A DNA stretch of 64,000 nt from Mycobacterium cookii (GTDB lineage Bacteria; Actinomycetota; Actinomycetes; Mycobacteriales; Mycobacteriaceae). The position numbers and the translations under genes are program-made. The notes beneath the pieces are model-generated. The model saw only the letters and a list, made by a program, of their open reading frames with translations. It was not told the origin of the DNA and did not search any database. Shown piece after piece: positions 1,074-24,037 of the stretch; positions within the stretch are counted from its first letter, which is position 1, and every line of letters begins with the position of its first letter. The stretch is taken from NCBI RefSeq assembly GCF_010727945.1, contig NZ_AP022569.1:3596001-3660000 (forward strand), given 5' to 3'.

Positions 1074-3728
1074 GTGGATCCCGGAATTCTGATGATCACG
1101 GGGACCGGCGTCACATCTGACGCCCCAGTGTTGACCGCGCCCAGAGTTGCGGCGGCTGCTGTCGAAGAGGTGATGGGCTGGCTGGCCACCTCGACCGACG
1201 GGCTCTCCAGTTCCGATGCGGCTGAACGTATCTCGCGATACGGCCACAATGCGGTCAGCACCCACCACGTCAGTGCGATTGCCGTGCTGGGGCGTCAATT
1301 GCGCAACGCGGTGCTCATCCTGCTTGCCGGTACGGCGATCGTGTCGTTCTTCCTCGGCGACGGCATGCAGGCGCTCATCATCGGTGTGATACTCGCGGCG
1401 AGCGTCGCGCTGGGCTTTGTCAACGAGTACCGGGCCGAGAAAGCCGCTGCCGCGCTGCATTCGGCCATGCGTCACAGTGCCGTCGTGCGCCGTGACGGAG
1501 GGTTCGTCAAGCTCGACGTCGTCGATCTGGTACCTGGAGACGTCATCCGGCTGTCGCTGGGCGAGGCGGTGCCTGCCGACGTGCGACTCGTCGAGGTCAG
1601 TGGCCTGGAATGCGACGAAAGCATTCTGACCGGCGAGTCGATGGGCGCGGAGAAATCACCCGAGCCGGTGCCGGCGGGAACGGTCTTGGCCGAGTCGAGC
1701 AGCGTGGCGTTCATGGGCACGATCATCAGCGCCGGCGAGGGTCTCGGAGTGGTGTACGCCACCGGCAGACAAGCTGAATTCGGTCGCATCGCAGCAGGTC
1801 TCGGACAGGCTCAGCCCGAGACCGAATTTCAGCAGGGCTTGCGCCGATTTTCCTACCTGCTTCTCCAGGTGGCCGCCGCGTTGGTGGTCATCATCTTGGC
1901 CAGCAACTTGTTGTTGCGAAAGCCCGTGATTGATTCGGTGCTGTTCTCGCTGGCTATTGCGGTCGGCATCACACCGCAACTGCTGCCCGCGGTGGTCAGT
2001 GCCAGCCTCGCGACCGGATCGCGCGAACTTGCCAAGCTGAAGGTATTGGTCAAACGGTTGGTGTGTATCGAGGACCTCGGCGATATCGACATCCTCATCA
2101 CGGACAAGACCGGCACGCTCACCCAGGGCCGAATCAGTTTGATCGACACGGTCGATCCCACCGGCGCGCACGACTCATCCGTCCAACGACTGGGGTTGCT
2201 CGCCACCGACGTCGATCTCCGATCCGGCGGTGCCAGCGCCAACCCGCTCGATACCGCGCTGTGGGCGGCGCCCCAAGCGCGCACGCTGGTAGGCGGGGCG
2301 GTGCGCCGCGCCCTCTTGCCGTTCGATCCCGATCGCCGGGCAACGTCGGCGCTGATCGACGACAACGGGAATCGGGTATTGGTGGTCAAAGGCGCTCCGG
2401 AACAGGTGCTGGCCCGATGCCGACTGTCGAGCGACGACGCAGCAGGAACTCTCGACGCCCTGTTTGACGCGGGGCGGCGGGTGGTGGCTGTAGCAGTGAG
2501 GTCCGCGCCCGAGTTGACCAGTATCACGCCCGATGCCGAATCCAACCTGGACCTGGCCGGCTTCCTGGTTTTCGCCGACGAGCCCAAAATCGCTGCACGC
2601 CAGTCACTTGATGATCTGGCCGCGCTGGGCATCGAGGTGAAGATCGCGACCGGGGACAACCCGCGGGTCGCTGAAAAGGTCTGTACTGACCTGGGTTTGC
2701 GATCGAAGGGCACGATCACCGGTACCGAGTTGGACAATCTCGGCGACGACGAGTTCGTCGAGGCCGTGAAAATTCACACCATTTTCGCGCGTATCTCGCC
2801 GGAGCAGAAAGCGCACCTCGTCGAATCAGCCCGCCGCGGTGGGCGATCCGTTGGATTCCTCGGTGACGGCGTCAACGACGCGCTGGCATTGCATGCCGCC
2901 GATGTGGGGATTTCGGTAGACAGTGCGACCGACGTCGCGAAAGACGCGGCTGATGTGGTGCTCCTGGAAAAGGATCTGGGTGTGCTTGCCACGGGTGTCG
3001 CCGCGGGCCGGCGCATCTTCGCCAACACCGTCAAGTACGTGTTGATGGGCACTTCCAGCAATTTCGGGAACATGTTCAGCGCAGCCGCCGCCTCGGCGTT
3101 GTTACCTTTCCTGCCGATGCTGCCGAGCCAGATCCTGCTGAACAACCTGCTTTACGACAGTTCACAGCTGGCCATTCCCACCGACAACGTCGACGTCGAC
3201 CAGCTGCAGGCGCCGTCGCATTGGGACGTCGCGTTCATCCGTCGGTTCATGCTGACGTTCGGGCCGATCAGTTCGCTGTTCGATTTTCTGACCTTCGGTT
3301 TGATGCTCGGCGTGCTGCACGCCGGCCCCACCGAATTCCGCACCGGCTGGTTCGTGGAATCGCTTGCCACGCAGACGTTGATCATTTTCGCCATCCGCAC
3401 CCGTAAGGTGCCGTTCTTTCGCAGCCGACCGAGCGCGTGGTTGACGTTGACCAGCCTTACCGTGGTCGCCTGCGGCGTAGTGCTGACGATCTCACCGGTG
3501 GCTCGGACATTGGGTTTCACCCCGTTGCCGTGGCCGTTCTTCGTGACACTGGCCGGGTTTGTCCTTGTGTATCTGATTCTGGTCGAGCTGGCGAAGAAGC
3601 TGTTCTATGCCGAGTCGGTGCGGCCGGTCGCGGCGTTGCGTCGCACTCGGGATCGGCGGCACCGTATCCGTAAGCGTGCTGCCCGGTTCAGTCGTAGCAA
3701 CGGCAACTCCGCGCACGTACCCGGCTAG
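1074..3728 (+). CDS. mgtA: MgtA-family Mg2+-importing P-type ATPase
   Basis: An 884-residue P-type ATPase of the P3B (MgtA/MgtB) class, expected to carry Mg2+ into the cell. Visible motifs: actuator TGES at 186-189, phosphorylation site DKTGTLT with Asp344, hinge GDGVND at 597-602, and six C-terminal hydrophobic segments. The fourth-helix motif reads TPQLLP (Gln302) where enterobacterial MgtA has TPEMLP. The tail is very basic. The start could be GTG 1074 or ATG 1092; neither has a strong ribosome binding site. The 3' end overlaps the convergent acyl-CoA dehydrogenase gene by four bases. Assignment to the family is firm; Mg2+ as substrate follows from the family. Confidence 0.88.
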   Translation: MDPGILMITGTGVTSDAPVLTAPRVAAAAVEEVMGWLATSTDGLSSSDAAERISRYGHNAVSTHHVSAIAVLGRQLRNAVLILLAGTAIVSFFLGDGMQALIIGVILAASVALGFVNEYRAEKAAAALHSAMRHSAVVRRDGGFVKLDVVDLVPGDVIRLSLGEAVPADVRLVEVSGLECDESILTGESMGAEKSPEPVPAGTVLAESSSVAFMGTIISAGEGLGVVYATGRQAEFGRIAAGLGQAQPETEFQQGLRRFSYLLLQVAAALVVIILASNLLLRKPVIDSVLFSLAIAVGITPQLLPAVVSASLATGSRELAKLKVLVKRLVCIEDLGDIDILITDKTGTLTQGRISLIDTVDPTGAHDSSVQRLGLLATDVDLRSGGASANPLDTALWAAPQARTLVGGAVRRALLPFDPDRRATSALIDDNGNRVLVVKGAPEQVLARCRLSSDDAAGTLDALFDAGRRVVAVAVRSAPELTSITPDAESNLDLAGFLVFADEPKIAARQSLDDLAALGIEVKIATGDNPRVAEKVCTDLGLRSKGTITGTELDNLGDDEFVEAVKIHTIFARISPEQKAHLVESARRGGRSVGFLGDGVNDALALHAADVGISVDSATDVAKDAADVVLLEKDLGVLATGVAAGRRIFANTVKYVLMGTSSNFGNMFSAAAASALLPFLPMLPSQILLNNLLYDSSQLAIPTDNVDVDQLQAPSHWDVAFIRRFMLTFGPISSLFDFLTFGLMLGVLHAGPTEFRTGWFVESLATQTLIIFAIRTRKVPFFRSRPSAWLTLTSLTVVACGVVLTISPVARTLGFTPLPWPFFVTLAGFVLVYLILVELAKKLFYAESVRPVAALRRTRDRRHRIRKRAARFSRSNGNSAHVPG

Positions 3729-5020
3729 CTGCGCGGAATTCCCGCGAGCTGGTCGGCGAACTTGGCTTCGGCCGCTTGACGAAGACGCAGCAGGTGCTCG
3801 GACGGGAACAGGCCAGGCGAGGGCTTGCAGTCTTTCAGCAGTTGTCGCGCCAAGGTGACCTTGTGTACCTCGGTCGGCCCGTCGGCCAGACCCAGCACGA
3901 ACGACTCGGTCAGATACTGCACGAACGGCATCTCGTGCGACGTCCCCAGCGAGCCATGCAGTTGCAGCGCCCGCGACGACACGTCGTGCAGCACCTTCTG
4001 CATCATCGCCTTGACTGCCGAGATGTCGGCGCGGACGGCCTTGTAGTCATTGTATTTGTCAATCTTCCAAGCGGTTTGGAGGGTCAGCAGCCGGAACGCC
4101 TCGATCTCCATCCACGAGTCGGCGATCATCTCCTGCACCATCTGCTTGTTCGCGAGCAGCTCGCCCTGCGTGTAGCGCGACACCGCGCGTTCGGTGAGCA
4201 TGTCGAAGATGCGCCGCACCAGGCCCACCGTCCGCATGGCGTGGTGGATACGGCCGCCGCCGAGACGTGTCTGCGCCACCACGAACGCGCCGCCGCGCGG
4301 GCCGAGCATATGGTCATCAGGCACGCGCACGTTCTCGTAGCGGACGTAGCCCTCCCGGCCACCGCCGAGCGGCTGGTAGCCGAGCCCGACGTCGCGCAGC
4401 ACGTTGATACCGGGTGTGTCGCCAGGCACGACGAACATCGAATACCGTTGATAAGGCGGCGCTTCGGGGTCGGTCATGGCCATCACGATGATGAACGACG
4501 CCATCGATGCGAACGACGAATACCACTTTTCGCCGTTGATCACCCAGTGGTCGCCATCCGGTGTGGCGGTCGTGGTGAACACCTTCGGATCGGCGCCGCC
4601 TTGCGGCTCGGTCATCGAGAAGCAGGAGATGATCCGGTTGTCCAGCAGCGGCTCCAGATAGCGCGCCTTCAGTTCCGGGGTGCCGTAGTGGGCGAGGATC
4701 TCGCTGTTGCCGGAATCCGGTGCCTGGGAACCGAATACGATCGGCGCGCATTCCGACCGGCCGAGAATCTCGTTGAGCAACGCCAATTTGACCTGGCCGT
4801 AGCCTGGCCCGCCCAGGTGCGGGCCCAGGTGCGTCGCCCACAACCCGCGCTCCTTGACGATGGCCTGCAGCGGAGGAATGAGCGCTTGGCGGACCGGGTC
4901 GTTGAGGTCGTGAGATTCCTTGACGATCAGGTCGATCGGTTCACATTCCGAGCGGACGAACTCGTCGACCCACGCGAGTTGTTCGGCCCATTGCGGGTCG
5001 GTCGAGAAGTCCCAAGCCAA
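3725..5020 (-). CDS. Acyl-CoA dehydrogenase (FadE, ACAD10/11-like)
   Basis: A 431-residue FAD enzyme that would introduce the alpha,beta double bond into an acyl-CoA. It shows the FAD/substrate stretch around SMTEPQGGADP, then NGEKWYSS, a long helical C-terminal domain and ADGPTEVHK, the ACAD10/11-type version of the catalytic loop. It is clearly paralogous to fadE1 at 46375-47664 in this window, sharing long identical stretches such as GQVKLALLNEILGRS. The start is TTG 5020, preceded by AAAGGAC. It lies 24 bases downstream of an enoyl-CoA hydratase on the same strand, so the two probably form a beta-oxidation pair transcribed from the divergent promoter at 5864-5931. Confidence 0.92.
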   Translation of the reverse strand: MAWDFSTDPQWAEQLAWVDEFVRSECEPIDLIVKESHDLNDPVRQALIPPLQAIVKERGLWATHLGPHLGGPGYGQVKLALLNEILGRSECAPIVFGSQAPDSGNSEILAHYGTPELKARYLEPLLDNRIISCFSMTEPQGGADPKVFTTTATPDGDHWVINGEKWYSSFASMASFIIVMAMTDPEAPPYQRYSMFVVPGDTPGINVLRDVGLGYQPLGGGREGYVRYENVRVPDDHMLGPRGGAFVVAQTRLGGGRIHHAMRTVGLVRRIFDMLTERAVSRYTQGELLANKQMVQEMIADSWMEIEAFRLLTLQTAWKIDKYNDYKAVRADISAVKAMMQKVLHDVSSRALQLHGSLGTSHEMPFVQYLTESFVLGLADGPTEVHKVTLARQLLKDCKPSPGLFPSEHLLRLRQAAEAKFADQLAGIPRS

Positions 5021-5044: not shown

Positions 5045-5863
5045 TTACGACGACCACGATTGCCGACGAGCTGCCGCTTCGTCAGTCGCATGGCTGAGCA
5101 CCTGGTTGCGGTTCTCCAGCTCCAGGGCTGCGTCCAGTCCGGCCGAGTCGACGTTGATCTGCAGCGCGCGTTTGGTCAGTTGCACCCCGAGCGGCGTGAG
5201 TTCGGCTATCCGGGCGGCCATTTCGATGGCGCGGCCGAGAAGGTCGTCGGGAGCGACCAGCTCGCTCACCAGTCCGCGGCGGTCGGCTTCCTCGGCCGAG
5301 ACGGTTCGGCCGGTCAGCATCCAGTCCGCGGCCACGCTGGTCCCGACGATGCGCGGCAGGAAGTAACTCATCCCCATCTCCGCACCGGACAGGCCGAGCA
5401 GGATCGCTGCATTACCGAATGTCGCTGCGGTCGAGCAGATTCTGACGTCGGCAGCCAGGCACAGCGCCAGGCCCGCGCCGACACAGGGTCCGTTCACCGC
5501 CGCGATCACCGGTTGCGGAATGACGCGGATCGCCTGCGGCAGCGCGGCCATCGTCTCCTGGAACCGGAGGCGCTCGATCGCCGGCGCCGTCGCCTCCGGT
5601 ACGCGAGGGCCGAAGTCGCGCATGTCGATGCCCGAGCAGAATCCGCGTCCCGCGCCGGTCAGCACGACGGCGTTGACCGAGCCGTCCGCTCCCAGGGCAG
5701 CAAGTGTCGAGCTGAGCTCGCCGACCATCGCGTCGTTGATCGCGTTGAGCTGCTTCGGCCGGTTCAGCTTCAGCACGGCCACACCGGCCTGCGGCCGTTG
5801 TACGGTCAGCGTATCGGTCACCGGCGGCCGAGCCCCCTTCGTCGCGAGCCCTGAGACATGCAT
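5045..5863 (-). CDS. Enoyl-CoA hydratase/isomerase (crotonase family)
   Basis: A 272-residue crotonase-fold protein, likely hydrating or otherwise processing an unsaturated acyl-CoA. Oxyanion-hole segments are visible at GAGRGFCSGIDM and GPCVGAGLAL; the later GAEMG segment carries a candidate catalytic Glu. The ATG at 5863 has no Shine-Dalgarno sequence and may give a nearly leaderless message; a GTG 42 bases inside is the alternative and would match the usual family start better. First gene of the operon with the downstream FadE, divergent from a second crotonase at 5932. Confidence 0.9.
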   Translation of the reverse strand: MHVSGLATKGARPPVTDTLTVQRPQAGVAVLKLNRPKQLNAINDAMVGELSSTLAALGADGSVNAVVLTGAGRGFCSGIDMRDFGPRVPEATAPAIERLRFQETMAALPQAIRVIPQPVIAAVNGPCVGAGLALCLAADVRICSTAATFGNAAILLGLSGAEMGMSYFLPRIVGTSVAADWMLTGRTVSAEEADRRGLVSELVAPDDLLGRAIEMAARIAELTPLGVQLTKRALQINVDSAGLDAALELENRNQVLSHATDEAAARRQSWSS

Positions 5864-5875
5864 TTGCAGATAACG

Positions 5876-5888
5876 AGAATGCTATTCT
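5876..5888. promoter_or_regulatory. Palindrome AGAAT-GCT-ATTCT, probable operator
   Basis: Perfect inverted repeat of five bases with a three-base spacer in the 68-base gap between the divergent crotonase genes. The same palindrome, with spacer CAT, occurs in the divergent promoter at 13433-13447; I did not notice it elsewhere in the window. On the plus strand it contains TATTCT (5883-5888), a plausible -10 element for the 5932 gene, so a bound protein would block transcription. The cognate regulator is unknown; the GntR gene at 10969-11709 is the nearest candidate. Confidence 0.65.
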
Positions 5889-5931
5889 TCGCCAGCGTAG
5901 ACCCGCAACGGGGTGGGGGATCGGAGGAGAC

Positions 5932-6666
5932 GTGACAGATCTCGAAACAGCCGACGGCGTCACGATCGTCCGATTCGACAACGCACCGGTCAACGCGCTC
6001 GACCTGGACCTGCTTGAAGTCATCATCGCGTCGATGCGCAGCGTCGAGGGACCGGTCGTCCTGACCGGTGCGGGCCGTAGCTTCTCGGCCGGTGTCGACC
6101 TGCGCGCCCTCGCCGACGGCGGCACCGACTACGCCGGTCGCTTCGTCACCGCGTTGTCGGAGGCCTTTCTCGCGATCTACGACCACCCGGCGCCGGTGGT
6201 CGCGGCGATCAACGGGCACGCGATCGCAGGCGGGTGCGTTCTGGCCATGTGCGCCGACGTGCGACTGATGTCCGGCGGGACGATCGGGCTCACCGAGCTC
6301 GCCGTCGGCGTCCCGTTTCCGGTGGCCGCTCTGGAGATCTGCCGCGACGCGATGGGGGTCACTGCGAGTCGCGCGGCGCTGCAGGCCAAGACGATCGACG
6401 CGGATACCGCGCTGGCCCGCGGGTGGCTCGACGCGGTCGTTCCCGGCGACGAGGTGGTCGCCCGGGCGGTGACCATCGCCGCAGAGCTGGGTCGATACTC
6501 GCCGGCCGCCTTTGCGGCCACCAAGAAGCAACTGCACCGGCCGGTACGCGCCGCGATCGATGCCGGCGCCGCGACCGACGCCGACGTGCGGGCCAGCTGG
6601 ATATCGGAGGACACCCGCGGCCGCATCAACGCGTTCCTCGAATCGCTCGCCCGCGGCCGCTCGTGA
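5932..6666 (+). CDS. Enoyl-CoA hydratase/isomerase family protein
   Basis: A 244-residue crotonase. GAGRSFSAGVDL and GHAIAGGCVLA form the two oxyanion-hole strands, and the Glu of GLTELAVG is at the catalytic position. It starts at GTG 5932 with a strong GGAGGAG just upstream. The stop overlaps the GTG of the next gene by four bases, so the two are translationally coupled. It is only distantly similar to the divergent crotonase at 5045-5863, so the two probably act at different steps. Confidence 0.9.
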   Translation: MTDLETADGVTIVRFDNAPVNALDLDLLEVIIASMRSVEGPVVLTGAGRSFSAGVDLRALADGGTDYAGRFVTALSEAFLAIYDHPAPVVAAINGHAIAGGCVLAMCADVRLMSGGTIGLTELAVGVPFPVAALEICRDAMGVTASRAALQAKTIDADTALARGWLDAVVPGDEVVARAVTIAAELGRYSPAAFAATKKQLHRPVRAAIDAGAATDADVRASWISEDTRGRINAFLESLARGRS

Positions 6667-7124
6667 GCCTCTGGATCGCCCACGCCGAACACACGCTGAG
6701 TGAGGAGATCCCGGCGCCGCCCGATCAGGTCCGGGATTTCTATGTCGACCTGGAGAACATCAAAGTCGTTCACCCGCTGGTGGTTTCGGTGCAGACGATC
6801 GCGCGCGAGGAAACCGCCGACGGTTATCACCAGACCTATCGCGTGCGTGACCGTATTCCGCTGGGGCCGTTGTCGATCGGGATCAGCTATCGGGCGAGTC
6901 TCGACGTGCCGGTGCACGGTGACGTGATCACCGAGGCTCGGCAGTTCCCGCGGGTGCGGCTGAACGGTGTCGTGTCGTTCGAGCCGATCGACTCAGGCAC
7001 TCGCCTCACCGAACGAATCCGGATCGCTGCCCCCCGACTGCTCGCCCCGATGACTGAGGGCGAAGCGGTCAAGGCGCACGCAGCGATGCTGGCCGGCATC
7101 CGCAGTCACTTCGAGAGTCGTTGA
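6663..7124 (+). CDS. SRPBCC/CoxG-like polyketide cyclase family protein
   Basis: A 153-residue single-domain protein of the START/SRPBCC type: an N-terminal strand and helix (IPAPPDQVRDFYVDLENIK), a run of beta strands, and a long C-terminal helix ([19 protein letters not shown]). Such domains bind hydrophobic ligands in a cavity and may carry or modify them. Start GTG 6663 overlaps the stop of the upstream crotonase. The 3' end overlaps the convergent acyl-CoA synthetase by 19 bases. Its specific role is unknown; context suggests a ligand of the surrounding catabolic pathway. Confidence 0.8.
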   Translation: MSLWIAHAEHTLSEEIPAPPDQVRDFYVDLENIKVVHPLVVSVQTIAREETADGYHQTYRVRDRIPLGPLSIGISYRASLDVPVHGDVITEARQFPRVRLNGVVSFEPIDSGTRLTERIRIAAPRLLAPMTEGEAVKAHAAMLAGIRSHFESR

Positions 7125-8584
7125 CGCAGATCCTTTTTCAGGACCTTGCCGTAGCTGTTCTTCGGCAGGTCGTCCACGGCCAGATACCGCTTAGGGCGTT
7201 TGAAGCGGGCAATCCGCTGCAGCAGATGAGCGTCGAGATCGGCTGTGCTGATCTCATCGGCTCCGCCGATGACGATGAAGGCGACGACGATCTCGCCCCA
7301 CTCGGCGTCGGGTGCCCCGACCACGCACGCTTCCGACACCGCGGGATGCTCGAGCAGGGCCTCCTCCACCTCGCGTGGATAGATGTTGGACCCGCCGCTG
7401 ATCACGACATCCTTCGAACGGTCGTGCAGCGTCAGGTACCCGCGCGCGTCGAACGAGCCCATGTCGCCGGTTCGCAGCCAGCCGCCGCGTAACGTCTCGC
7501 CAGTGGCCACCGGATTGCGCCAATAACCAGACATCACAACATCACCGCGACAAACGATCTCGCCGATCTCGCCCACCGCAGCCGGTGTGTCGTCGCCGCG
7601 CAGCACGGCGACTTCCATACCCGTCCGCGCCCGCCCGACCGACCCAAGGATCGCGTCGTCGGCGTCGTCGTAATCCGCGCGGCGCAATCCGGTGATCGTC
7701 ATCGGAGACTCGCCCTGGCCGTAGATCTGGGTGAACACCGGACCGAACGCGGCGAGCGCCTTTTTGATGCTGTCCACATACATCGGCCCGCCGCCGTAGA
7801 CGATGGTCTGCAGTGCGCTCGGCCGCGGGCGGCCTGTCGCGATGACGCGTTGCACCATCGTCGGCGCGAGGAAAGCGCTGGAGCCTGGATGATGCTCGCA
7901 AAGATCGAGGAATTCGGCCGGGTCGAATCCGCCGCCCTCGGGGATCACCTGGCGGGCGCCACGCACGACGTAGGCCGGGATGTAAAGCCCCGAGCCGTGC
8001 GACATCGGCGCCGCGTGAATCAGGCTGCACCGCTCATCGGGGCTGTCCATGTCTGCGAGATGAGCCACTGTCATCGCCATCAGGTTGCGGTGCGTGAGCA
8101 TGGCGCCCTTCGACCTGCCGGTTGTGCCGCTGGTGTAGAACAGCCAGGCCAGCGTCGACGGGTCGGTGGTCGGCGCTGCAACCGGGGCGCCGGTGAGCCA
8201 GTGTGAGTAGTCTTCTCCCTCAACGTTTTCCACCGGATAGCCGCTGTCCAGCTGGTCGGCAATCGCCTGCGACGCGAAGACGTGCGACACCGACGCATCG
8301 TCGAGGATCTGGGCCATCTCACGCGGATGCAGCTTGTAGTTGATCGGTACCGCGACGCATTCGGCGGCCCAGATCCCGTAGAGCAGCTCGACGATCTCTG
8401 GGCGGTTCTCGCTGGCGATCGCGATGCGTGCGCCGGCCGGGTACCGCCCGCGCAGGGCGCCCGCCAGTCGCAGCGCGCGGTCCCGCAGTTCCGACCAGGT
8501 GCTGCAGCGATGCCGGCCGTGATACACCGCGCCGCGGTCGGGAAACTGCCGCGCGGCCTGATCGAGCAGCGCGAACAGATTCAC
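7106..8584 (-). CDS. Acyl-CoA synthetase (FadD-like, ANL superfamily)
   Basis: A 492-residue adenylate-forming enzyme that would activate a carboxylic acid to its CoA thioester. It shows the P-loop [12 protein letters not shown], the A5 motif YGQGE, the A7/A8 region [11 protein letters not shown] to [12 protein letters not shown] and the A10 motif with the catalytic Lys (NSYGKVLKK). GTG 8584 is chosen as start because its GTGA overlaps the stop of the upstream SDR and the residues after it align with the family; a longer reading exists but would run far into the SDR. Last gene of the minus-strand operon starting at 13318. Confidence 0.9.
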
Positions 8585-9354: not shown

Positions 9355-9355
9355 G

Positions 9356-13318: not shown

Positions 13319-13432
13319 CGGTGTAGACCTCCGGGCCTAGGCGTCGCGGCGGTTCACGTTAGCAACCGCCCGTGGTCCAGACAATAGGCAGGCAAAGCTG
13401 AACCGACGGCACTTGACGCTCAGCCATTTGCA

Positions 13433-13447
13433 GAGAATCATATTCTC
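13433..13447. promoter_or_regulatory. Palindrome GAGAAT-CAT-ATTCTC, probable operator
   Basis: Perfect six-base inverted repeat with a three-base spacer in the 177-base divergent promoter between the propeller operon (minus) and the Rieske operon (plus). It shares the AGAAT-N3-ATTCT core with 5876-5888 and, as there, includes a TATTCT -10-like hexamer (13441-13446) on the plus strand. Both sites also have the ten-mer CATTTGCAGA nearby (13425-13434 and 5861-5870), although at different distances. Likely a repressor site for both operons. Confidence 0.65.
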
Positions 13448-13495
13448 AATTATGCACATTCAGCTATTTTGTCCGGACAATTAGGCGAATACATT

Positions 13496-15716: not shown

Positions 15717-17582
15717 ATGACCCAGTTGGATGGGCGGCCTGACACCTGCGGGCCCACCGATGTACCGCAGGACGTCGACATAGACGCGATGCGGGCCAAG
15801 TACGCCCAGGAGCGCGAGAAGCGCCTCCGCAAGGACGGCGGCGCGCAGTACCTCGAACTCGACGGTGACCTGGCCGACCTCTACGAGGTAGACCCGTACA
15901 CCCCGGTGGCCGACCGCGCCCCGATCGACGAGGACATCGAGGTGGTCGTCCTCGGGGGCGGGTTCGCCGGATTGTTGTCGGGCGCATACCTGAAAAAGGC
16001 CGGCGTGCAAGATGTTCGGGTCATCGACATGGCCGGGGACTTCGGCGGAGTGTGGTACTGGAACCGCTTCCCGGGCATCCAGTGCGACAACGATGCCTAC
16101 TGCTACATCCCGATGCTCGAGGAACTCAGCTTCTTGCCGAGCAAGAAGTTCGCCGACGGCGCCGAGATCTTCGCGCACTGCCAGGCCATGGGCAAACACT
16201 TCGACCTCTACGACGGCGCGATCTTCTCCACCCAGGTCGAGACCATGCGCTGGGACGAGGAGATCAAGCGCTGGCGGCTGACCACCAACCGCGGTGACGA
16301 CATCCGCGCGCGGTTCGTGGTGATGGCGCAGGGCTCGTACAACAAGCCCAAGTTGCCCGGTATCCCCGGTATCAAGGAGTACCTGGACGCCGGCGGCCAC
16401 GCGTTCCATTCCGCGCGCTGGGATTACGACTACACCGGCGGGGATGCCGGCGGCGGCCTGCACAAGCTGGCCGACAAGCGGGTCGCACTCGTCGGCACGG
16501 GGGCTACCGGCGTCCAGTTGGTGCCACATCTCGGCCGGGATGCCCAGCAGCTCTTCGTGTTCCAGCGCACCCCGTCGTCGGTGGACATGCGCGCCAACAC
16601 GCCCACCGACCCAGCCTGGGCGGCGACCCTGCAGCCCGGGTGGCAGGAGGAGCGCAAGCGTAACTTCCACAACTGGTCACCGTTTGTCGGGGTGGTCTTC
16701 GGCGAACCGGATCTGGTGTGCGACTTCTGGACCGAATTAGGCCGCAACATGACCGCCCGGATTGCCGCCAGCCCGGATCCCGCCTCGCTGGGGATCGAGC
16801 AGATGATGCTGATCCGGGAAGAAGAGGACTACAAGATCATGGAGCGGCTGCGGCGGCGGGTGGCCGCCCTGGTCGCCGACCCCGACACCGCCGAGGCGCT
16901 CAAGCCGTACTACCGCTTCATGTGCAAGCGGCCGTGTTCGAGCGAGACGTACCTGCCGGCGTTCAACCTGTCCAACGTGACGTTGGTGGACGTGTCGGAA
17001 TCCAAAGGCGTGGAACGTCTGACGGAGAAGGGCATTGTCGCCAACGGCGTCGAGTACGAGGTCAATTGCGTCGTATTCGCCAGCGGGTTCGAGATCTCCA
17101 CGGAGATCAGTCGGCGCTTCGCGGTCGACGTCATCGAGGGCCGAGGCGGGCAGTCGCTGTTCGACTACTGGCACGACAGGTACCAGACGCTGCACGGCAT
17201 GACCACCCGCGGATTCCCCAACCAGTTCTTCACCGGCTTCATCCAGGGCGGCGTCTCGGCCAACACCACTGCGATGTTCGAGCAACAGGCCGAGCACATC
17301 GCCTACATCATCGCCGAGGCGCAGAACCGCGGCGCGACCACCGTCGAACCCAGTCAGGAGGGTCAGGACGGCTGGGTCGCAGCGGTCGCCGAACTCGCAA
17401 TCGACAACTCGGCCTTCGAGATGTCCTGCACCCCTGGCTATTACAACAACGAGGGTCAGGGTGGCGCCAAAGACAATGGTGCGTTCCTCGGTGATTTCTA
17501 CTCGCCGGGCTTCTACGCTTTCGGCGACCTGATCGCCGAGTGGCGCGCCAGGGGTGACCTGGAAGGCCTTGAGCTTTCGTGA
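15717..17582 (+). CDS. Flavin-containing Baeyer-Villiger-type monooxygenase
   Basis: A 621-residue FAD/NADPH monooxygenase. It has two Rossmann fingerprints, LGGGFAG near residue 80 and VGTGATG near residue 260, and between them a Baeyer-Villiger-like signature FHSARWD with His231 and Trp235. The N-terminal 70 residues and the long C-terminal part are typical of cyclic-ketone or steroid monooxygenases of this size. It would insert oxygen next to a ketone, giving a lactone or ester. ATG 15717 lies five bases after the Rieske stop; its 3' end overlaps the next SDR by four bases. Confidence 0.9.
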   Translation: MTQLDGRPDTCGPTDVPQDVDIDAMRAKYAQEREKRLRKDGGAQYLELDGDLADLYEVDPYTPVADRAPIDEDIEVVVLGGGFAGLLSGAYLKKAGVQDVRVIDMAGDFGGVWYWNRFPGIQCDNDAYCYIPMLEELSFLPSKKFADGAEIFAHCQAMGKHFDLYDGAIFSTQVETMRWDEEIKRWRLTTNRGDDIRARFVVMAQGSYNKPKLPGIPGIKEYLDAGGHAFHSARWDYDYTGGDAGGGLHKLADKRVALVGTGATGVQLVPHLGRDAQQLFVFQRTPSSVDMRANTPTDPAWAATLQPGWQEERKRNFHNWSPFVGVVFGEPDLVCDFWTELGRNMTARIAASPDPASLGIEQMMLIREEEDYKIMERLRRRVAALVADPDTAEALKPYYRFMCKRPCSSETYLPAFNLSNVTLVDVSESKGVERLTEKGIVANGVEYEVNCVVFASGFEISTEISRRFAVDVIEGRGGQSLFDYWHDRYQTLHGMTTRGFPNQFFTGFIQGGVSANTTAMFEQQAEHIAYIIAEAQNRGATTVEPSQEGQDGWVAAVAELAIDNSAFEMSCTPGYYNNEGQGGAKDNGAFLGDFYSPGFYAFGDLIAEWRARGDLEGLELS

Positions 17583-18502
17583 GCGAGTTGCGGTTTGACG
17601 ACCGGGTGGCCGTGGTGACCGGTGCCGGACGCGGGCTGGGATGCGCTTACGCCCGCCTGCTCGCCGAGCGTGGAGCGAAGGTCGTCGTCAACGACGTCGG
17701 CGGCAGCCTGGCCGGCCACGGGGTCGACGCCGGGCCGGCCGAGCAGGTCGTCGATGCGATCAGGGCAGCCGGGGGAGAAGCCGTCGCCTGCACCGCGTCG
17801 GTCGCCACCCGCGACGGCGCCGAGGCCATCGTGCAGACCGCGATCGAGCGCTACGGCCGCATCGACATCCTGATCCACAACGCCGGCAACGTGCGGCGGG
17901 GAACGCTGAAGGAGATGAGCTACGACGACTTCGACGCGGTGCTCGACGTGCACTTGCGCGGCGCATTCAGCGTTGTGCGGCAGTCATTTCCAGTAATGTG
18001 TGCGGCCGGATACGGGCGGATCGTGCTGACCTCGTCGATCGGCGGCCTGTACGGCAACCACGGCGTCGCCAACTATGCGGCAGCCAAGGCCGGCATCATC
18101 GGGCTCTCGGCTGTCGCAGCTCTCGAGGGCGCCGCCGAGGGCGTGAAGTCGAACGTGATCGTGCCGGCCGCGGTCACCAGGATGGCCGAGGGGATCGACA
18201 CGTCGGCCTATCCGCCGATGGGCCCCGAGCTCGTCGCACCGGTGGTGGGCTGGCTGGCACACGAATCCTGTTCGGTGAGCGGCGAAATGTTCATCGCGCT
18301 GGCGGGCCGGGTGGCCCGGGCGGTCTTCGCCGAGAGCCCCGGTGTGCACCGTCCGTCCTGGACAGTCGACGACGTGGGTGAGCATCTCGACTCGATTCGA
18401 AACATCGAGGCGCCGTTGGTTTTTCCTGTCTTGCCTGACGGGCACAACGACCACATCCGGTACAGCTTCGGCATGGCCGCCCAACAGGCCCACCATGCCT
18501 AG
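17579..18502 (+). CDS. SDR, HSD17B4-type hydroxyacyl-CoA dehydrogenase-like
   Basis: A 307-residue SDR starting at GTG 17579. It has TGAGRGLGCAYA followed by a VNDVGG segment and an HNAG motif, with active-site NYAAAKAG. The length and the C-terminal region resemble the (3R)-hydroxyacyl-CoA dehydrogenase domain of multifunctional enzyme type 2 (17-beta-HSD type 4). It would oxidise a 3-hydroxyacyl-CoA or a related ring alcohol. Overlaps of four and eight bases with its neighbours show tight coupling. Confidence 0.88.
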   Translation: MSELRFDDRVAVVTGAGRGLGCAYARLLAERGAKVVVNDVGGSLAGHGVDAGPAEQVVDAIRAAGGEAVACTASVATRDGAEAIVQTAIERYGRIDILIHNAGNVRRGTLKEMSYDDFDAVLDVHLRGAFSVVRQSFPVMCAAGYGRIVLTSSIGGLYGNHGVANYAAAKAGIIGLSAVAALEGAAEGVKSNVIVPAAVTRMAEGIDTSAYPPMGPELVAPVVGWLAHESCSVSGEMFIALAGRVARAVFAESPGVHRPSWTVDDVGEHLDSIRNIEAPLVFPVLPDGHNDHIRYSFGMAAQQAHHA

Positions 18503-19658
18503 CGGACCGCTGGCCGGGGTGCGGGTGATCGACCTCACCGCGATGGTGATGGGGCCGTATTGCACGCAGATCATGGCAGACATGGGCGCTGACGTGATCA
18601 AAGTCGAACCGCCACAAGGTGATGACACGCGTTACGTCTCGGTCGGCCCGGTGCCGGGCATGAGCGGCGTTTTCGTCAACGTCAACCGCGGCAAGCGCAG
18701 CGTGGTGCTGGACCTGCAGACCGACCCCGGAACACGGGCGCTGCGCGCACTTCTCGAGACCGCGGACGTGTTCATCCACTCGATGCGCGCCAGGGCCATC
18801 GCCAAACTCGGCTTCGGCTACGACGACGTGGCGGCGATCAACCCCGGGATCGTCTACACCAACTGCTACGGATACGGGCGCCGTGGACCCGACCGCGACC
18901 GACCCGCCTACGACGACACCATCCAGGCCGAATGCGGCCTGCCGGCGGTCCAACAGCAACTGACCGGCGAAGCTGATTACGTCGGAACGATCATCGCCGA
19001 CAAGGTCACCGGGCTCACCGCGCTGTATGCCACGACCATGGCGCTATTCCACCGTGAACGCACCGGGGAGGGCCAGGAAGTCGAGGTCGCCATGTTCGAA
19101 ACCATGGCGTCGTTCATGCTCGTCGAGCACGCCAACGGCGCACTGTTCGACCCGCCCCTGGGACCCGCGATGTATCCGCGCACCGTGGCGCCCAACCGGC
19201 GTCCCTACCGCACCAGCGACGGCCACATCGCCGCGCTGATCTACAACGACAAGCATTGGAATGCGTTCGTCGACGCCGTCCGCCCGCCGTGGGCGAACGA
19301 GAGCTACGCCACGCTCGCGCAGCGTGCCGGTCAGATAGACATCATCTACGGGCTGCTGGCCGAGACGATGAAACAACGCTCGACGCAGGAATGGCTGGAT
19401 CTGCTGCGCGAACTCGAGATACCGGCCGCACCGTTGAACACGCCCGGTGCGCTGTTCGACGATCCACACCTCAACGCCGTCGGCATGTTCGAAACGGTGG
19501 ATACCCCGTACGGACCGGTGCGCTTCCCGGGCGTACCCACCTGGTTCTCGCACACGCCGGGCCGGGTCGCAGGGCCGGCGCCGGAACTCGGCGCAGACAC
19601 CGCGGCGATCCTCGACGAGCTGGGCCTGGCGGTCGACGGTGTGGCGGGCTCGGGATAG
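18495..19658 (+). CDS. CaiB/BaiF family CoA-transferase
   Basis: A 387-residue class III CoA-transferase. The N-terminal GVRVIDLTAMVMGPYCTQIMADMGADVIKVE pattern and the RGKRSVVLDLQ segment are diagnostic; the family's acyl-anhydride Asp would be near residue 150-160, and DD is present in RPAYDDTIQAE. It moves CoA between two carboxylic acids, or acts with a CoA-ester lyase as formyl-CoA transferase does with oxalyl-CoA decarboxylase. The next gene is a ThDP enzyme, which makes that comparison attractive. ATG 18495 overlaps the SDR stop by eight bases. Confidence 0.9.
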   Translation: MPSGPLAGVRVIDLTAMVMGPYCTQIMADMGADVIKVEPPQGDDTRYVSVGPVPGMSGVFVNVNRGKRSVVLDLQTDPGTRALRALLETADVFIHSMRARAIAKLGFGYDDVAAINPGIVYTNCYGYGRRGPDRDRPAYDDTIQAECGLPAVQQQLTGEADYVGTIIADKVTGLTALYATTMALFHRERTGEGQEVEVAMFETMASFMLVEHANGALFDPPLGPAMYPRTVAPNRRPYRTSDGHIAALIYNDKHWNAFVDAVRPPWANESYATLAQRAGQIDIIYGLLAETMKQRSTQEWLDLLRELEIPAAPLNTPGALFDDPHLNAVGMFETVDTPYGPVRFPGVPTWFSHTPGRVAGPAPELGADTAAILDELGLAVDGVAGSG

Positions 19659-19702: not shown

Positions 19703-21415
19703 ATGGCCGTTCCGGTCTACAAGCGCATACTCGACTTGTTCGAGGCCGAGGGCGTCAACACGCTGTTCGGCATCCCGGACCCGAACTTCGTGCACATGTT
19801 CGCAGAGGCCGACGCTCGCGGGTGGTCGGTGGTGGCGCCGCATCACGAACTGAGCGCGGGATTCATGGCCGAGGCGGCGTCACGCATGACGGGCAAGCCC
19901 GGCTTGTGCATCGGCACGCTCGGCCCGGGCATGGCCAATATCGCCGGGGCGATTCAGTGCGCGCTCGTCGAGAACTCACCGGTGATCTTCCTCGGTGGGC
20001 AGCGGGCCCGCGTCACCGAGCGCCGGGTGCGGCGCGGCCGTATCCAATTCGTCCAGCAGGAACCGCTTTTCGCCGCATCGGTGAAGTACAGCAGCTCGAT
20101 CGAGTACGCCGACCAGACCGACGAGATCATCCACGAGGCCATCCGCAGGGCGATGTCCGGCACTCCGGGGCCGTCCTACGTCGAGTTCCCGTCGCACGTG
20201 ATCCTCGAGGAGCTCGATGTCGCCGAGGCGCCGAGCCCGTCGAGTTACCGGCTGGTCAGCCAGGGCGCCGGTACCCGCGAGGTGGCCGAGGCGGTCAAGC
20301 TGATCCGCGAGGCCAAGAGCCCGATCCTGCTGGTGGGCCACGGCGTGCACACCTCACGTACCCAACAGGAGGTCAAGGAGCTGGCCGAGCTGATGGCCTG
20401 CCCGGTGATTCAGACCTCCGGCGGGACCTCGTTCATTCCGGGATTGCAGGAGCGGACGTTCCCCTACCTGTTCTCACCGGCCGCCAACGAGGCAGTCGAG
20501 GAATCCGACCTGTGCGTTGCGCTGGGTACTGAACTCGGTGAGCCGATGCACTACGGCCGGACCCAGCATTGGGCCGGCAACGACGCGAACCGCAAATGGG
20601 TGTACGTGGAGCAGGACCCGACCGCCATCGGCGTCAACCGCCGGTTCGACGTGGCGCTGGTCGGCGATCTGCGCGGTGTGGTGCCGCAGCTGGTCGAGGC
20701 GCTCAAGGATGCTCCGCGCAAACCCGCACCCGCGCTGCAGGTCCTGATCGAAAAGGATGCGAAAGAGCTTGCGGACATGGCGGAATCGGCGCCGTCCGGA
20801 CGCTCACCGATCCACCCGGCGCGCTACGTCGTCGAGGCCACCAAGGCGTTCAACGAACTCGAGCACGGCATCTTGGTGCGCGACGGCGGCGCGACCGTGA
20901 TCTTCCAGTGGACCTATTCGCAGTCCAAGCCGCGCGACGTCATCTGGAACCAGAACTTCGGCCACCTCGGCACCGGCCTGCCGTACGCGGTCGGGGCATC
21001 GGTGGCCGAGGGCGGTAAGCGCCCGGTGATGCTGTTGACCAGCGATTCGGCGTTCCTTTTCCATATCGCCGAGCTGGAAACCGCTGCGCGCCAGAATCTT
21101 CCGCTGGTGTGCGTGGTCGGCGTGGACCACCAGTGGGGCCTCGAGGTGGGTGTGTACAAGCGCACCTTCACCCAGCCGTCGCCGCAGCCCGGTGTGCACT
21201 GGAGCAAGGACGTCCGGATGGACAAGGTCGCCGAGGGCTTCGGTTGCCACGGTGAGTACGTCGAGAAGGAAGAGGAGATCGTCCCGGCGATCGCCCGCGC
21301 CTACGCCAGTGGCAAAGTCGGGGTGGTGCACGTGTGCATCGACCCGAAGGCCAACTCCGAGGAAATGCCCAAGTACGACCGATTCCGGACCTGGTACGCC
21401 GAAGGCACCCAGTAA
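19703..21415 (+). CDS. Thiamine-diphosphate enzyme (acetolactate synthase/oxalyl-CoA decarboxylase family)
   Basis: A 570-residue protein with the three-domain layout of ThDP-dependent decarboxylases and lyases. The cofactor-activating Glu is Glu49 in HHELSAGF. The Mg/ThDP motif is altered: where GDG is expected the sequence is SDS (447-449), and 27 residues after Asp448 the expected Asn is Asp475 (GVDHQWG). ATG 19703 has GAAGGAG upstream. A 44-base gap separates it from the CaiB gene. It could be a 2-hydroxyacyl-CoA lyase or a decarboxylase; the changed metal site leaves even the cofactor use to be tested. Confidence 0.85.
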   Translation: MAVPVYKRILDLFEAEGVNTLFGIPDPNFVHMFAEADARGWSVVAPHHELSAGFMAEAASRMTGKPGLCIGTLGPGMANIAGAIQCALVENSPVIFLGGQRARVTERRVRRGRIQFVQQEPLFAASVKYSSSIEYADQTDEIIHEAIRRAMSGTPGPSYVEFPSHVILEELDVAEAPSPSSYRLVSQGAGTREVAEAVKLIREAKSPILLVGHGVHTSRTQQEVKELAELMACPVIQTSGGTSFIPGLQERTFPYLFSPAANEAVEESDLCVALGTELGEPMHYGRTQHWAGNDANRKWVYVEQDPTAIGVNRRFDVALVGDLRGVVPQLVEALKDAPRKPAPALQVLIEKDAKELADMAESAPSGRSPIHPARYVVEATKAFNELEHGILVRDGGATVIFQWTYSQSKPRDVIWNQNFGHLGTGLPYAVGASVAEGGKRPVMLLTSDSAFLFHIAELETAARQNLPLVCVVGVDHQWGLEVGVYKRTFTQPSPQPGVHWSKDVRMDKVAEGFGCHGEYVEKEEEIVPAIARAYASGKVGVVHVCIDPKANSEEMPKYDRFRTWYAEGTQ

Positions 21416-21430: not shown

Positions 21431-22852
21431 ATGCGCGAATACCTGAAGTTCTACATCGACGGACAGTGGGTCGACCCGTTGCGGCCCAACACTTTTGACG
21501 TCGACAACCCGGTGACCGAGCAGGTATCCGGAAAGATCTCGCTGGGGTCGGCGGCCGATGTCGACCTGGCGGTCCAAGCCGCCCGGCGAGCCTTCGCGAG
21601 TTGGTCGCAAAGCACCCGCGAGCAGCGCCTGGACCTGCTGCAGGCCATCCTCGCCGAATACCAGAAGCGCGCCGACGATCTCGCCGAGGCGGTCACCGAG
21701 GAAATCGGGGCGCCGCCTTCGTTGGCGGCCGGACCGCAGGTCTTTCTCGGGATCGCGCATCTCAACACGGCCATCGACGTGCTGAAGAACTTTCCGTTCG
21801 AGGAGCACCACGGTCAGACCCTGATCGCCAAAGAGCCGATCGGCGTCTGCGGTTTGATCACGCCCTGGAACTGGCCGATCAACCAGGTCGCGGTCAAGGT
21901 CTACCCGGCGTTGGCGACCGGTTGCACCGTGATCCTGAAACCATCAGAAGTTGCGCCGTATTCGCCCTACATCTTCGCCGAGATCCTGGACGCCGCAGGT
22001 GTGCCGGCCGGGGTGTTCAACCTCGTCAACGGTGACGGCGCGGGCGTGGGTGTGGCGCTGGCGAGCCATCCCGACATCGACATGGTGTCGTTCACCGGCT
22101 CCACCCGCGCCGGTGTCGAGGTGGCCAAGAATGCCGCCTCGACGGTGAAGCGAGTAACCCAAGAACTCGGCGGCAAGAGCCCCAACATCGTCCTCGACGA
22201 CAGTGGCTTTGCTCAGAGTGTCAGCGCCGGTGTGGCCAACATGATGCCGAACTCCGGGCAGAGTTGTAACGCGCCATCACGCATGCTGGTCCCGAATTCG
22301 CGTATGGACGAAGCCATGACGATCGCTCGCGAGGCCGCCCAGAAGGTCAAGGTTGGTGGCGACGATGCGACCGCGATCGGGCCGGTCGCGTCGAAGGCCC
22401 AATTCGACAAGGTGCAGGGACTGATCCAGAAAGGCATCGACGAGGGCGCGACCGTGGTCGCCGGCGGTCCGGGACGACCCGCCGGGTTGGACACCGGGTA
22501 CTACGTCAAGCCGACCGTCTTCGCGAACGTCACCAACGACATGACGATTGCGCGCGAGGAGATCTTCGGGCCGGTGTTGTGCATCCTCGGTTACGACGAT
22601 CTCGACCAGGCCGTCGAGATCGCCAACGATACCGAATACGGTTTGGCCGGTTACGTTTCGGGGGCCGACCTCGAGAAAGCTCGCGACATTGCCCGCAAGA
22701 TCCGGGCCGGGTGGGTGACGATCAACCATGCTTTCGACCTGAACGCGCCGTTCGGCGGCTACAAGCGCAGCGGCAACGGTCGGGAGTGGAGTGAGGCCGG
22801 CTTCCAGGAGTACTTAGAGGTCAAGAGCACATTGGGATACGCGCCCGAATAG
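21431..22852 (+). CDS. NAD(P)-dependent aldehyde dehydrogenase
   Basis: A 473-residue ALDH-superfamily enzyme oxidising an aldehyde to its acid. The general base is Glu245 in QELGGKSP and the nucleophile is Cys279 in NSGQSCNAPS; ITPWNWP and NPFGG-like (NAPFGGYKRSGNGRE) motifs are also present. ATG 21431 is preceded by GAAGGA and lies 15 bases after the ThDP gene. If the ThDP enzyme releases an aldehyde, this would be the next step. Confidence 0.93.
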   Translation: MREYLKFYIDGQWVDPLRPNTFDVDNPVTEQVSGKISLGSAADVDLAVQAARRAFASWSQSTREQRLDLLQAILAEYQKRADDLAEAVTEEIGAPPSLAAGPQVFLGIAHLNTAIDVLKNFPFEEHHGQTLIAKEPIGVCGLITPWNWPINQVAVKVYPALATGCTVILKPSEVAPYSPYIFAEILDAAGVPAGVFNLVNGDGAGVGVALASHPDIDMVSFTGSTRAGVEVAKNAASTVKRVTQELGGKSPNIVLDDSGFAQSVSAGVANMMPNSGQSCNAPSRMLVPNSRMDEAMTIAREAAQKVKVGGDDATAIGPVASKAQFDKVQGLIQKGIDEGATVVAGGPGRPAGLDTGYYVKPTVFANVTNDMTIAREEIFGPVLCILGYDDLDQAVEIANDTEYGLAGYVSGADLEKARDIARKIRAGWVTINHAFDLNAPFGGYKRSGNGREWSEAGFQEYLEVKSTLGYAPE

Positions 22853-22876: not shown

Positions 22877-24037
22877 ATGAAGTGTCGTGCTGCAGTGCTG
22901 CGCGGGGTCGGGCAGGACTGGGAGATCCGCGAGGTCGATCTCGATCCGCCGCACGCCGGTGAAGTCCTGGTGCGGATGGTCGTTGCCGGCATCTGCCACT
23001 CCGATGACCACCTTGTCACCGGCGACGTGTTGCCGACCCCCGAGGTGCGGGCCTCAACCGGTATCCCCGAGCCGGACTGGTTTCCGATGCTCGGTGGTCA
23101 CGAGGGCGCTGGTGTCGTCGAAGAAGTCGGCCCGGGCGTGACGACGCTGCAGCCGGGGGACCACGTGGCGATGTCGTTCATTCCGGCCTGCGGCAGTTGC
23201 CGGTTCTGTGTGAACGGTCAGAGCTACATCTGCGACGCCGGCGCAAGCTTGTTCTCCAGGGAGATGCCCACCGACGGAACCTGTCGTCGTCATCTCGGCG
23301 ACGAAAACCTGATGGCTTACGGTCAACTCGGCACCTTCGCGGAGTACGCGGTGCTCACCGAACGGTCGGTCATCAAGATCGACGACGCGATCCCGTTCCA
23401 TGCGGCCTCGCTGGTGTCGTGCGGCGTCAGCACCGGCTGGGGCTCCGCAACGGTGTCGGCGGGCACCGAGCCCGGTGACACCGTCGTCGTCATCGGTACC
23501 GGTGGTGTCGGGATGAATGCGCTGCAAGGCGCGCGCGCGGCCGGCGCGACGTATGTCGTCGCGGTGGACCCGGTTGAGTCCAAGCGGGATTCGGCGAAGA
23601 TCTTCGGCGCCACGCACACCGCCGTCTCTGCGCAGGAGGCGATACCGGTGGTCACCGACATCACCGCCGGCGTGATGGCCGACCGCGTCATCTTGACGCC
23701 TGGTGTTCTGCACGCGGACTTGATCCCGTTGGCCATGCGGCTGCTTCGCAAGGGCGGAACCTGCGTGGTCACCGGCATCACCCCCTACACCGAGCCGGTG
23801 GTTCCGCTGATCCTGCAGGAGATGGTGCTGTCGTCCAAGCAACTCAAGGGTGCGCTCTACGGCGGGATGAATCCGCGCACGAGCGTGCCGTTGCTGTTGT
23901 CGATGTATCAGGCGGGTGCATTGAAGCTCGACGAGCTGGTGACCCGCCACTACGAGCTGGACCAGATCAACGAGGCGTTCCTTGACCTGCGTGAAGGCCG
24001 CAACATTCGCGGCATCATCGATTTCGCCGGGCTCTAA
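22877..24037 (+). CDS. Zinc alcohol dehydrogenase, NDMA-dependent (mycofactocin-type) family
   Basis: A 386-residue medium-chain dehydrogenase. Catalytic zinc ligands include Cys40 and His75 (GGHEGAG); structural zinc ligands are Cys105, Cys108, Cys111 and Cys119; the nucleotide site is GTGGVGMNA. The overall sequence fits the actinobacterial NDMA-dependent alcohol dehydrogenases, which hold NAD tightly and are thought to pass electrons to the redox peptide mycofactocin. That link is from family knowledge. Last gene of the operon, followed by a hairpin at 24037. Confidence 0.9.
   Translation: MKCRAAVLRGVGQDWEIREVDLDPPHAGEVLVRMVVAGICHSDDHLVTGDVLPTPEVRASTGIPEPDWFPMLGGHEGAGVVEEVGPGVTTLQPGDHVAMSFIPACGSCRFCVNGQSYICDAGASLFSREMPTDGTCRRHLGDENLMAYGQLGTFAEYAVLTERSVIKIDDAIPFHAASLVSCGVSTGWGSATVSAGTEPGDTVVVIGTGGVGMNALQGARAAGATYVVAVDPVESKRDSAKIFGATHTAVSAQEAIPVVTDITAGVMADRVILTPGVLHADLIPLAMRLLRKGGTCVVTGITPYTEPVVPLILQEMVLSSKQLKGALYGGMNPRTSVPLLLSMYQAGALKLDELVTRHYELDQINEAFLDLREGRNIRGIIDFAGL

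Follow-up and report, generated by a model that had tools for sequence, protein, structure and literature searches.

A Rieske oxygenase gene block of Mycobacterium cookii as a probable outlying module of a predicted TetR-controlled catabolic regulon

The stretch of DNA analyzed here, 64,000 nucleotides and hereafter the window, covers positions 3596001-3660000 of the single-contig 5.32-Mb genome of Mycobacterium cookii and carries an oxygenase- and CoA-dependent gene cluster that probably belongs to a larger catabolic regulon. The open reading frame (ORF) listing, codon-position composition, and Pfam and NCBIfam scans bore out the initial annotation: positions 3725 to 24037 hold 17 genes, arranged as four operons (Table 1). 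Operon 1, on the reverse strand, encodes an acyl-CoA dehydrogenase (FadE) and a crotonase (ECH1), and operon 2, on the forward strand, a second crotonase (ECH2) and an SRPBCC-like protein. Gene order in operon 3 (reverse) is propeller, GntR regulator, FadD2, short-chain dehydrogenase/reductase 1 (SDR1), and FadD1, and operon 4 (forward) runs from SDR2 through a Rieske oxygenase, a Baeyer-Villiger monooxygenase (BVMO), SDR3, CaiB, a thiamine diphosphate (ThDP) enzyme, and an aldehyde dehydrogenase (ALDH) to an alcohol dehydrogenase (ADH). Several starts in the mechanical ORF list lay too far upstream and probable starts were re-derived. With these, packing is tight: the last base of SDR2 is the first base of the Rieske start, the BVMO starts 5 bases past the Rieske stop, and CaiB overlaps the 3' end of SDR3 by 8 bases.

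The protein families named in the initial annotation were also right and could be refined. The nearest NCBIfam model of the BVMO was that of neopentalenolactone D synthase, PtlE (NF045818), although its 659.1 bits fall below the cut-off of 1100, and its best PDB match was 5mq6; the PtlE-like branch and 5mq6 act on bulky ketones. The medium-chain dehydrogenase is an NDMA-dependent ADH (TIGR03989, 502.5 bits, above the cut-off of 440), the regulator is of the GntR/UTRA type, and the propeller protein, possibly a lactone-opening enzyme, belongs to the ScyD/ScyE family (NF033206, 137.9 bits, above the cut-off of 80). For the SRPBCC-like protein the family match is weak (PF10604, 23.6 bits versus a cut-off of 27.4). 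In the Rieske oxygenase the [2Fe-2S] and iron-binding motifs are intact, and a Glu, presumably the bridging residue, aligns with the Glu before the iron-binding His of carnitine monooxygenase in at least 95% of both ortholog groups; its score against the GbcA model NF058607 was 119.6 bits, below the cut-off of 670. The Pfam scan found no Rieske reductase among the 17 genes. The ThDP enzyme scored 184 bits against structures of oxalyl-CoA decarboxylase and 2-hydroxyacyl-CoA lyase/synthase versus 186 for an ancestral acetolactate synthase, and 162.4 bits against the actinobacterial 2-hydroxyacyl-CoA lyase model NF058623, below its cut-off of 600; a looser functional likeness to the lyase is possible. 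A putative loss of its Mg-binding Asn was considered and dropped, as the Asp found there is spaced as in catabolic acetolactate synthases and the alignment is compatible. The best PDB match of CaiB is annotated as a formyl-CoA transferase.

Table 1. Features of the cluster (window positions) and of the remote region (genome coordinates). Occurrence refers to the 70 named loci and the 19 other-genus loci defined in the text.
Feature	Position	Strand or orientation	Evidence and occurrence
FadE-type acyl-CoA dehydrogenase	3725..5020	-	PF00441/PF02770/PF02771; 1/70 named loci
ECH1, crotonase	5045..5863	-	PF00378; 1/70 named loci
GAGAAT-N3-ATTCTC-like operator, one mismatch, ECH1/ECH2 divergent promoter	5875..5889	+	Identical letters and position in L046
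ECH2, crotonase	5932..6666	+	PF00378; 1/70 named loci
SRPBCC-like protein	6663..7124	+	PF10604 below cut-off; GTG start 6663; 33/70 named loci
FadD1, acyl-CoA synthetase, start 8596 or 8584	7106..8596	-	PF00501; 55/70 named loci
SDR1	8581..9354	-	PF13561; 70/70 named loci
FadD2, acyl-CoA synthetase, ATG 10951	9356..10951	-	PF00501; 70/70 named loci
GntR/UTRA regulator, ATG 11709	10969..11709	-	PF00392, PF07702; 70/70 named loci
Double beta-propeller, ScyD/ScyE family	11702..13318	-	NF033206 above cut-off; PF08450, PF24684; 70/70 named, 18/19 other-genus loci
First GntR-type palindrome (TGGTCCAGACAA)	13373..13384	+	Kept in 75/75 aligned intergenic regions
Perfect GAGAATCATATTCTC operator, propeller/SDR2 divergent promoter	13433..13447	+	Motif scan
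Second GntR-type palindrome (TTGTCCGGACAA)	13469..13480	+	Motif scan, intergenic alignment
SDR2, probable TTG start 13496	13496..14347	+	PF13561; 70/70 named, 19/19 other-genus loci
Rieske oxygenase alpha subunit	14347..15711	+	PF00355, PF00848; 70/70 named, 19/19 other-genus loci
Type I BVMO, PtlE-like branch	15717..17582	+	Family model and PDB match; 70/70 named, 19/19 other-genus loci
SDR3	17579..18502	+	PF00106; 70/70 named, 19/19 other-genus loci
CaiB, class III CoA-transferase	18495..19658	+	PF02515; 70/70 named, 1/19 other-genus loci
ThDP enzyme, acetolactate synthase / oxalyl-CoA decarboxylase / 2-hydroxyacyl-CoA lyase group	19703..21415	+	66/70 named, 18/19 other-genus loci
ALDH	21431..22852	+	PF00171; 38/70 named (10-kb flanks often stop short of ALDH), 16/19 other-genus loci
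NDMA-dependent ADH	22877..24037	+	TIGR03989 above cut-off; 34/70 named loci
TetR gene, candidate master regulator	2615290-2616009 (L155:7290-8009)	Divergent from FadE gene	Operator 57 bp upstream
Remote catabolic region	G000:C1:2548001-2668000 (L152-L157), operators within 2558-2656 kb		Seven GAGAAT-N3-ATTCTC sites

Strong relatives of the Rieske oxygenase (at least 669 bits) occurred in 31 of 201 family genomes, spread over eight genera and including 13 of 15 within the genus, the window's own among them; a 208-bit match in G044 was left out of the count. For named species the best 80 of 298 relatives were kept, all titled Mycobacterium, Mycolicibacterium, or Mycobacteriaceae, and the 70 loci with full flanks among them were scored for gene presence at 60% identity or more, genes beyond the 10-kb flanks being missed. 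Nine genes (SDR1, FadD2, GntR, propeller, SDR2, Rieske, BVMO, SDR3, and CaiB) were present in all 70, so their grouping is more than chance. Loci of other genera numbered 19, from 18 genomes (20 regions minus L133), and 16 of these held a complete seven-gene core of propeller, SDR, Rieske, BVMO, SDR, ThDP, and ALDH. Given this synteny across named and other-genus loci, the core is the unit, around which the CoA-ligase and beta-oxidation genes vary, with paired acyl-CoA dehydrogenases as substitutes in other loci. The co-conservation across actinobacteria that had been proposed as a check was hence found for the core. Versions of it are also found on a plasmid of M. branderi (L136) and one of a Rhodococcus (L137), both annotated as such. 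In 396 sampled genomes of the phylum, the Rieske oxygenase (E<=1e-120) was found in ten, all within the family, and the TetR regulator described below (E<=1e-50) in 12, one of which (G275, 59% identity) belongs to another family; at these thresholds the system appears mainly confined to the family.

Variants of the locus were also recorded. Many Mycolicibacterium-type loci (L066, L069, L105, and others) have acyl-CoA dehydrogenase genes, apparently paired, between CaiB and ThDP, and in L109 (M. kyorinense) and L110 (M. celatum) the order is altered, with ThDP and ALDH between propeller and SDR2. On the 864-kb M. branderi plasmid, ThDP-ALDH-Rieske-BVMO-SDR3-CaiB is accompanied by P450s, a mycofactocin-coupled SDR, and a MobF relaxase, so a plasmid can carry part of the module. 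L133 (G197:C1:3677300-3697200), from a same-genus genome, encodes a 50%-identical Rieske paralogue with relatives of GntR (55%) and FadE (57%) and none of the other core genes; it is perhaps a sister pathway. Among 120 matches listed (3449 matches in 8000 scored candidates), P0111 is a 70%-identical Rieske oxygenase whose source is named as a Rhodospirillaceae metagenome-assembled genome, reflecting either transfer or misbinning.

Two kinds of palindrome occupy the promoters of the cluster. The propeller/SDR2 intergenic region was aligned over 75 regions, those of the window and of the loci, 74 of 102, whose propeller and SDR2 genes are divergent and no more than 600 bases apart. Two TTGTCYRGACAA-like sites with at most two mismatches were present in every region; the best copy was perfect in 71 and had one mismatch in four, and was equaled in only 1 of 375 shuffled regions. 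Such a palindrome is expected for a GntR/UTRA regulator. Genome-wide this motif occurs at eight places, two of them within the cluster. Between the two TTGTCYRGACAA sites sits an element of the form GAGAAT-N3-ATTCTC. Across the 102 core loci (2.06 Mb) ten such sites were found within one mismatch, of which eight precede the propeller gene (L046, L056, and 6 of the 19 other-genus loci); the other two lie in the ECH1/ECH2 promoter of L046 and inside one BVMO gene, the last being taken as chance.

In the whole genome the pattern GAGAAYNNNATTCTY occurs at 11 places, ten of which are perfect palindromes, and its reversed control at none. Two sites are the divergent promoters of the cluster (5875 and 13433), seven fall within 2558-2656 kb, and two lie at 3100 and 3697 kb. 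Of 60 genus genomes, 50 contained the strict palindrome, with zero control matches in all 60. Genes of the remote region were listed with a crude ORF caller based on GC content at third codon positions, 39 proteins from this region and the outlying sites being checked by Pfam and the rest by BLAST only. It has an mce-type operon, of which two members were Pfam-checked (MlaE and Mce4_CUP1/MlaD), and eight P450-like genes, one identified by Pfam and seven by BLAST. Paired acyl-CoA dehydrogenases, amidohydrolases, and a second Rieske oxygenase are encoded as well. Directly behind an operator lies the gene for a reductase with Fer2, FAD, and NAD domains, whose best PDB match is benzoate dioxygenase reductase. 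Two FAD_binding_2 flavoproteins are encoded, one of which was compared and had 3-oxosteroid dehydrogenases (KstD-like) as best PDB matches, along with a FAD_binding_3 hydroxylase, a LigB dioxygenase, an alpha/beta hydrolase, and a ChsH2-like/thiolase fusion. The flavoprotein-hydroxylase-dioxygenase-hydrolase set resembles the aromatize-hydroxylate-cleave logic of steroid ring A, built from other enzyme families. The genome scan found no perfect operator copy beside this set in the window's genome, and the operator stands beside it in two other genomes (L166, L177). Around listed operator sites in four other genomes, 18 of 20 chosen stretches had the operator beside relatives (BLAST best hits) of the same genes, L164 and L170 having no recognized neighbor.

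The two outlying sites have neighbors of their own. That at G000:C1:3100012 lies between histidine-phosphatase and APH-type genes, an arrangement that recurs in G205, and that at G000:C1:3697125 precedes an acyl-CoA thioesterase-like gene.

The TetR gene of the remote region has the layout predicted for autoregulation, the palindrome standing just upstream of it and of the target operons. Strong orthologs (best match at least 299 bits; a 98-bit match in G044 was left out) occurred in 46 of the 201 family genomes, among them all 31 with the Rieske oxygenase (Fisher p about 2e-25, phylogeny ignored). A perfect operator was found in 45 of the 46, with two or more copies in 39, versus 12 of the 155 others, with one copy each, and the reversed-pattern control gave one match across the family genomes, in G187. 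In the 11 genomes whose upstream site was read, the operator lay 57-87 bp before the matched part of the TetR gene; in G152 the nearest operator among the sites listed was on the 3' side of the gene.

Physical linkage was scrutinized in genomes of other genera, with BLAST best hits as relatives. In G174 the core (6392-6402 kb) lies within a 180-kb stretch (6340-6520 kb) holding best-hit relatives, at 55% identity or more, of 42 distinct remote-region genes, and in G031 16 such relatives fall within 120 kb around the core. Hence two loci about 1 Mb apart in the window's genome are neighbors elsewhere. In G187, of the same genus, the Rieske gene, the TetR gene, and five operators are on one contig within 38 kb.

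Taken together, gene content and synteny, the distribution of the operator, co-occurrence, and linkage in other genera make it probable that these genes serve the oxidative ring opening and CoA activation of an alicyclic alcohol or ketone, and that they form a detached module of a larger catabolic regulon, which TetR would control and whose substrate would be a polycyclic compound resembling steroids or terpenoids. The Rieske oxygenase would hydroxylate an unactivated C-H; as Pfam revealed no reductase among the 17 genes, the obvious candidate to feed it is the remote-region reductase whose gene lies behind an operator. SDR2 would oxidize the product to a ketone, into which the BVMO would insert oxygen to give a lactone or ester, and the propeller protein may open the lactone. 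The ThDP enzyme and ALDH could then cleave or trim away a carbon fragment, first as an aldehyde and next as an acid, while CaiB and the FadD proteins would form CoA esters for beta-oxidation by FadE, ECH, and SDR3. This order of reactions is a conjecture fitted to gene content. Judging by operator conservation, the GntR/UTRA protein would act on the two TTGTCYRGACAA sites and the TetR protein, encoded about 1 Mb away, on GAGAAT-N3-ATTCTC in both cluster and remote region, and the latter would add mce uptake, P450s, KstD-like dehydrogenation, aromatic hydroxylation, and meta-cleavage. The catabolic system proposed in the initial annotation, for an alicyclic or terpenoid-like compound, accordingly stands as to its oxygenase/CoA type and its probable alicyclic substrate, which is plausibly terpenoid- or steroid-like. 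Its description as self-contained is not supported: Pfam detected no Rieske reductase among the genes, FadE, ECH1, and ECH2 turn up in just one of the 70 named loci, two promoters share their operator with a remote 100-kb region, and the core lies among relatives of that region in G174 and G031.

Several observations weigh against membership of the cluster in a TetR regulon. In the aligned propeller/SDR2 regions the relaxed pattern GAGAAYNNNRTTCTC was perfect only in 2 of 75 (the window and L046), with one mismatch in 17, two in 44, and three in 12; of 375 shuffled regions, 13 came within two mismatches and none closer. Thirteen of the 19 other-genus loci have no GAGAAT site within one mismatch. 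FadE, ECH1, and ECH2 were found in a single one of the 70 named loci, L046. The window as a whole holds three GAGAAT motifs versus 0.91 expected, a weak excess reached in 3 of 100 shuffles, and four GntR-type motifs versus 3.96 expected; neither motif being much above chance there, the case rests on the whole-genome pattern. Co-occurrence of Rieske, TetR, and operator was counted regardless of phylogeny. Of the 46 genomes with TetR, 15 are without the Rieske oxygenase, indicating that the regulon can exist without the window's module, and G098 has the TetR gene and no operator.

An alternative is that the cluster suffices by itself for the pathway of a single small compound, alicyclic or monoterpenoid, under its own GntR control, the GAGAAT sites being a lineage-specific add-on or coincidence. 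The presence of the two GntR-type palindromes in all 75 regions, while GAGAAT is mostly degenerate, and of the GntR gene in all 70 named loci is consistent with it, yet every Rieske genome carries TetR, the six other-genus loci with an operator before the propeller gene are without GntR, G174 and G031 have the core amid relatives of remote-region genes, and the cluster has no reductase by Pfam; we consider this explanation unlikely. About equally improbable is a variant of the same module in which ThDP, ALDH, and CaiB form an alpha-oxidation branch, a 2-hydroxyacyl-CoA lyase yielding formyl-CoA and an aldehyde, CaiB recycling the CoA, and the BVMO and Rieske oxygenase acting on side chains, not rings. 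The near tie of the ThDP enzyme between lyase-type structures and acetolactate synthase and the formyl-CoA transferase annotation of the CaiB match would suit such a branch, but the actinobacterial lyase model scores far below its cut-off, and CaiB is near the core in only one of the 19 other-genus loci.

The cluster might instead be part of an actinobacterial steroid system (for cholesterol, bile acid, or estrogen) that is already characterized under a different name, and so be new by annotation only, which we regard as quite unlikely. The KstD-like flavoprotein, mce genes, ChsH2-like protein, and paired FadE genes of the co-regulated region speak for it, and alpha2-beta2 acyl-CoA dehydrogenases are used in actinobacterial sterol degradation (PMC6678751). 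The KstR and KstR2 cholesterol regulons of mycobacteria and rhodococci are also alike in design. Their control is of TetR type, through a palindrome situated both close to the regulator gene and in divergent promoters, and they comprise mce transport, P450s, paired acyl-CoA dehydrogenases, KstD-like dehydrogenation, and a Rieske oxygenase with reductase (PMC3068626 and PMC6678751 for part of the regulon features). However, the conserved promoter palindromes here are GAGAAT-N3-ATTCTC and TTGTCYRGACAA, not the KstR2 operator AnCAAGnnCTTGnT (PMC3068626), a comparison of promoters made with no genome scan for the KstR/KstR2 motif. The window's Rieske oxygenase is not KshA, matching PF00848 without PF19298 (KshA_C), and the genome's KshA_C matches, five in all, fall outside both the cluster and 2558-2656 kb, the nearest at 2795 and 2851 kb. 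Unlike the KstR regulons, the window core has a BVMO, a ThDP enzyme, and a propeller protein, and ring cleavage would fall to the FAD_binding_3 and LigB proteins of the remote region. The estrogen aed set (AedA P450, AedB, AedGHJ, and beta-oxidation enzymes) of the 4,5-seco pathway in Rhodococcus and relatives likewise applies a P450, meta-cleavage, and CoA-dependent steps to a polycyclic compound, but the main text of its review names no Rieske or Baeyer-Villiger enzyme (PMC12507874), and the accessible text of a bile-acid review does not contain 'Baeyer' (PMC8399759); both sets are distinguished by description.

At the level of single enzymes, the window's BVMO resembles PtlE and 5mq6-type enzymes in family model and structure match, but differs from PtlE in its low score relative to the equivalog cut-off and in a catabolic-looking neighborhood. 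The Rieske oxygenase is nearest to carnitine (CntA, by PDB match) and glycine-betaine (GbcA, by NCBIfam model) monooxygenases and shares their Glu, whereas its score is far below the cut-off and the similarity lies mainly in the N-terminal half.

In agreement with the initial annotation, which did not recognize the set as any described cholesterol, camphor, or limonene cluster, the literature searched, with most subscription journals outside it, yielded no characterized cluster with the window's gene set, no paper on the GAGAAT-N3-ATTCTC operator, and no description of a steroid-like TetR regulon using it. Sterol catabolism occupies a central place in the biology of mycobacteria. If our interpretation is true, a second regulon of comparable design, its operator in 50 of 60 genus genomes, would equip these bacteria for another class of polycyclic natural product. 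Operator, regulator, and short conserved core offer direct ways of tracking down the substrate, and biocatalysis would gain a new Rieske-BVMO-ThDP set from the core. More tentatively, and with somewhat less than even confidence, the whole could form an undescribed super-pathway of about 100 genes for non-sterol polycyclic terpenoids (e.g., triterpenoids, hopanoids, or diterpenoids) in many mycobacteria and related genera. Such a pathway would come with a dedicated TetR switch that has GAGAAT-N3-ATTCTC as its operator, an importer of the mce type, and a KstD-like/flavin hydroxylase/LigB operon that aromatizes and cleaves in parallel to the steroid one with other enzyme families, while the window's Rieske-BVMO-ThDP module would open a second ring via a lactone.

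By Pfam, the flanks of the cluster are ordinary, with a P-type cation ATPase (1074-3728) on one side and an acyltransferase-3/SGNH protein (24175-26313) on the other, followed by an L,D-transpeptidase (28010-28774) and an EF-G-like GTPase (28989-31403).

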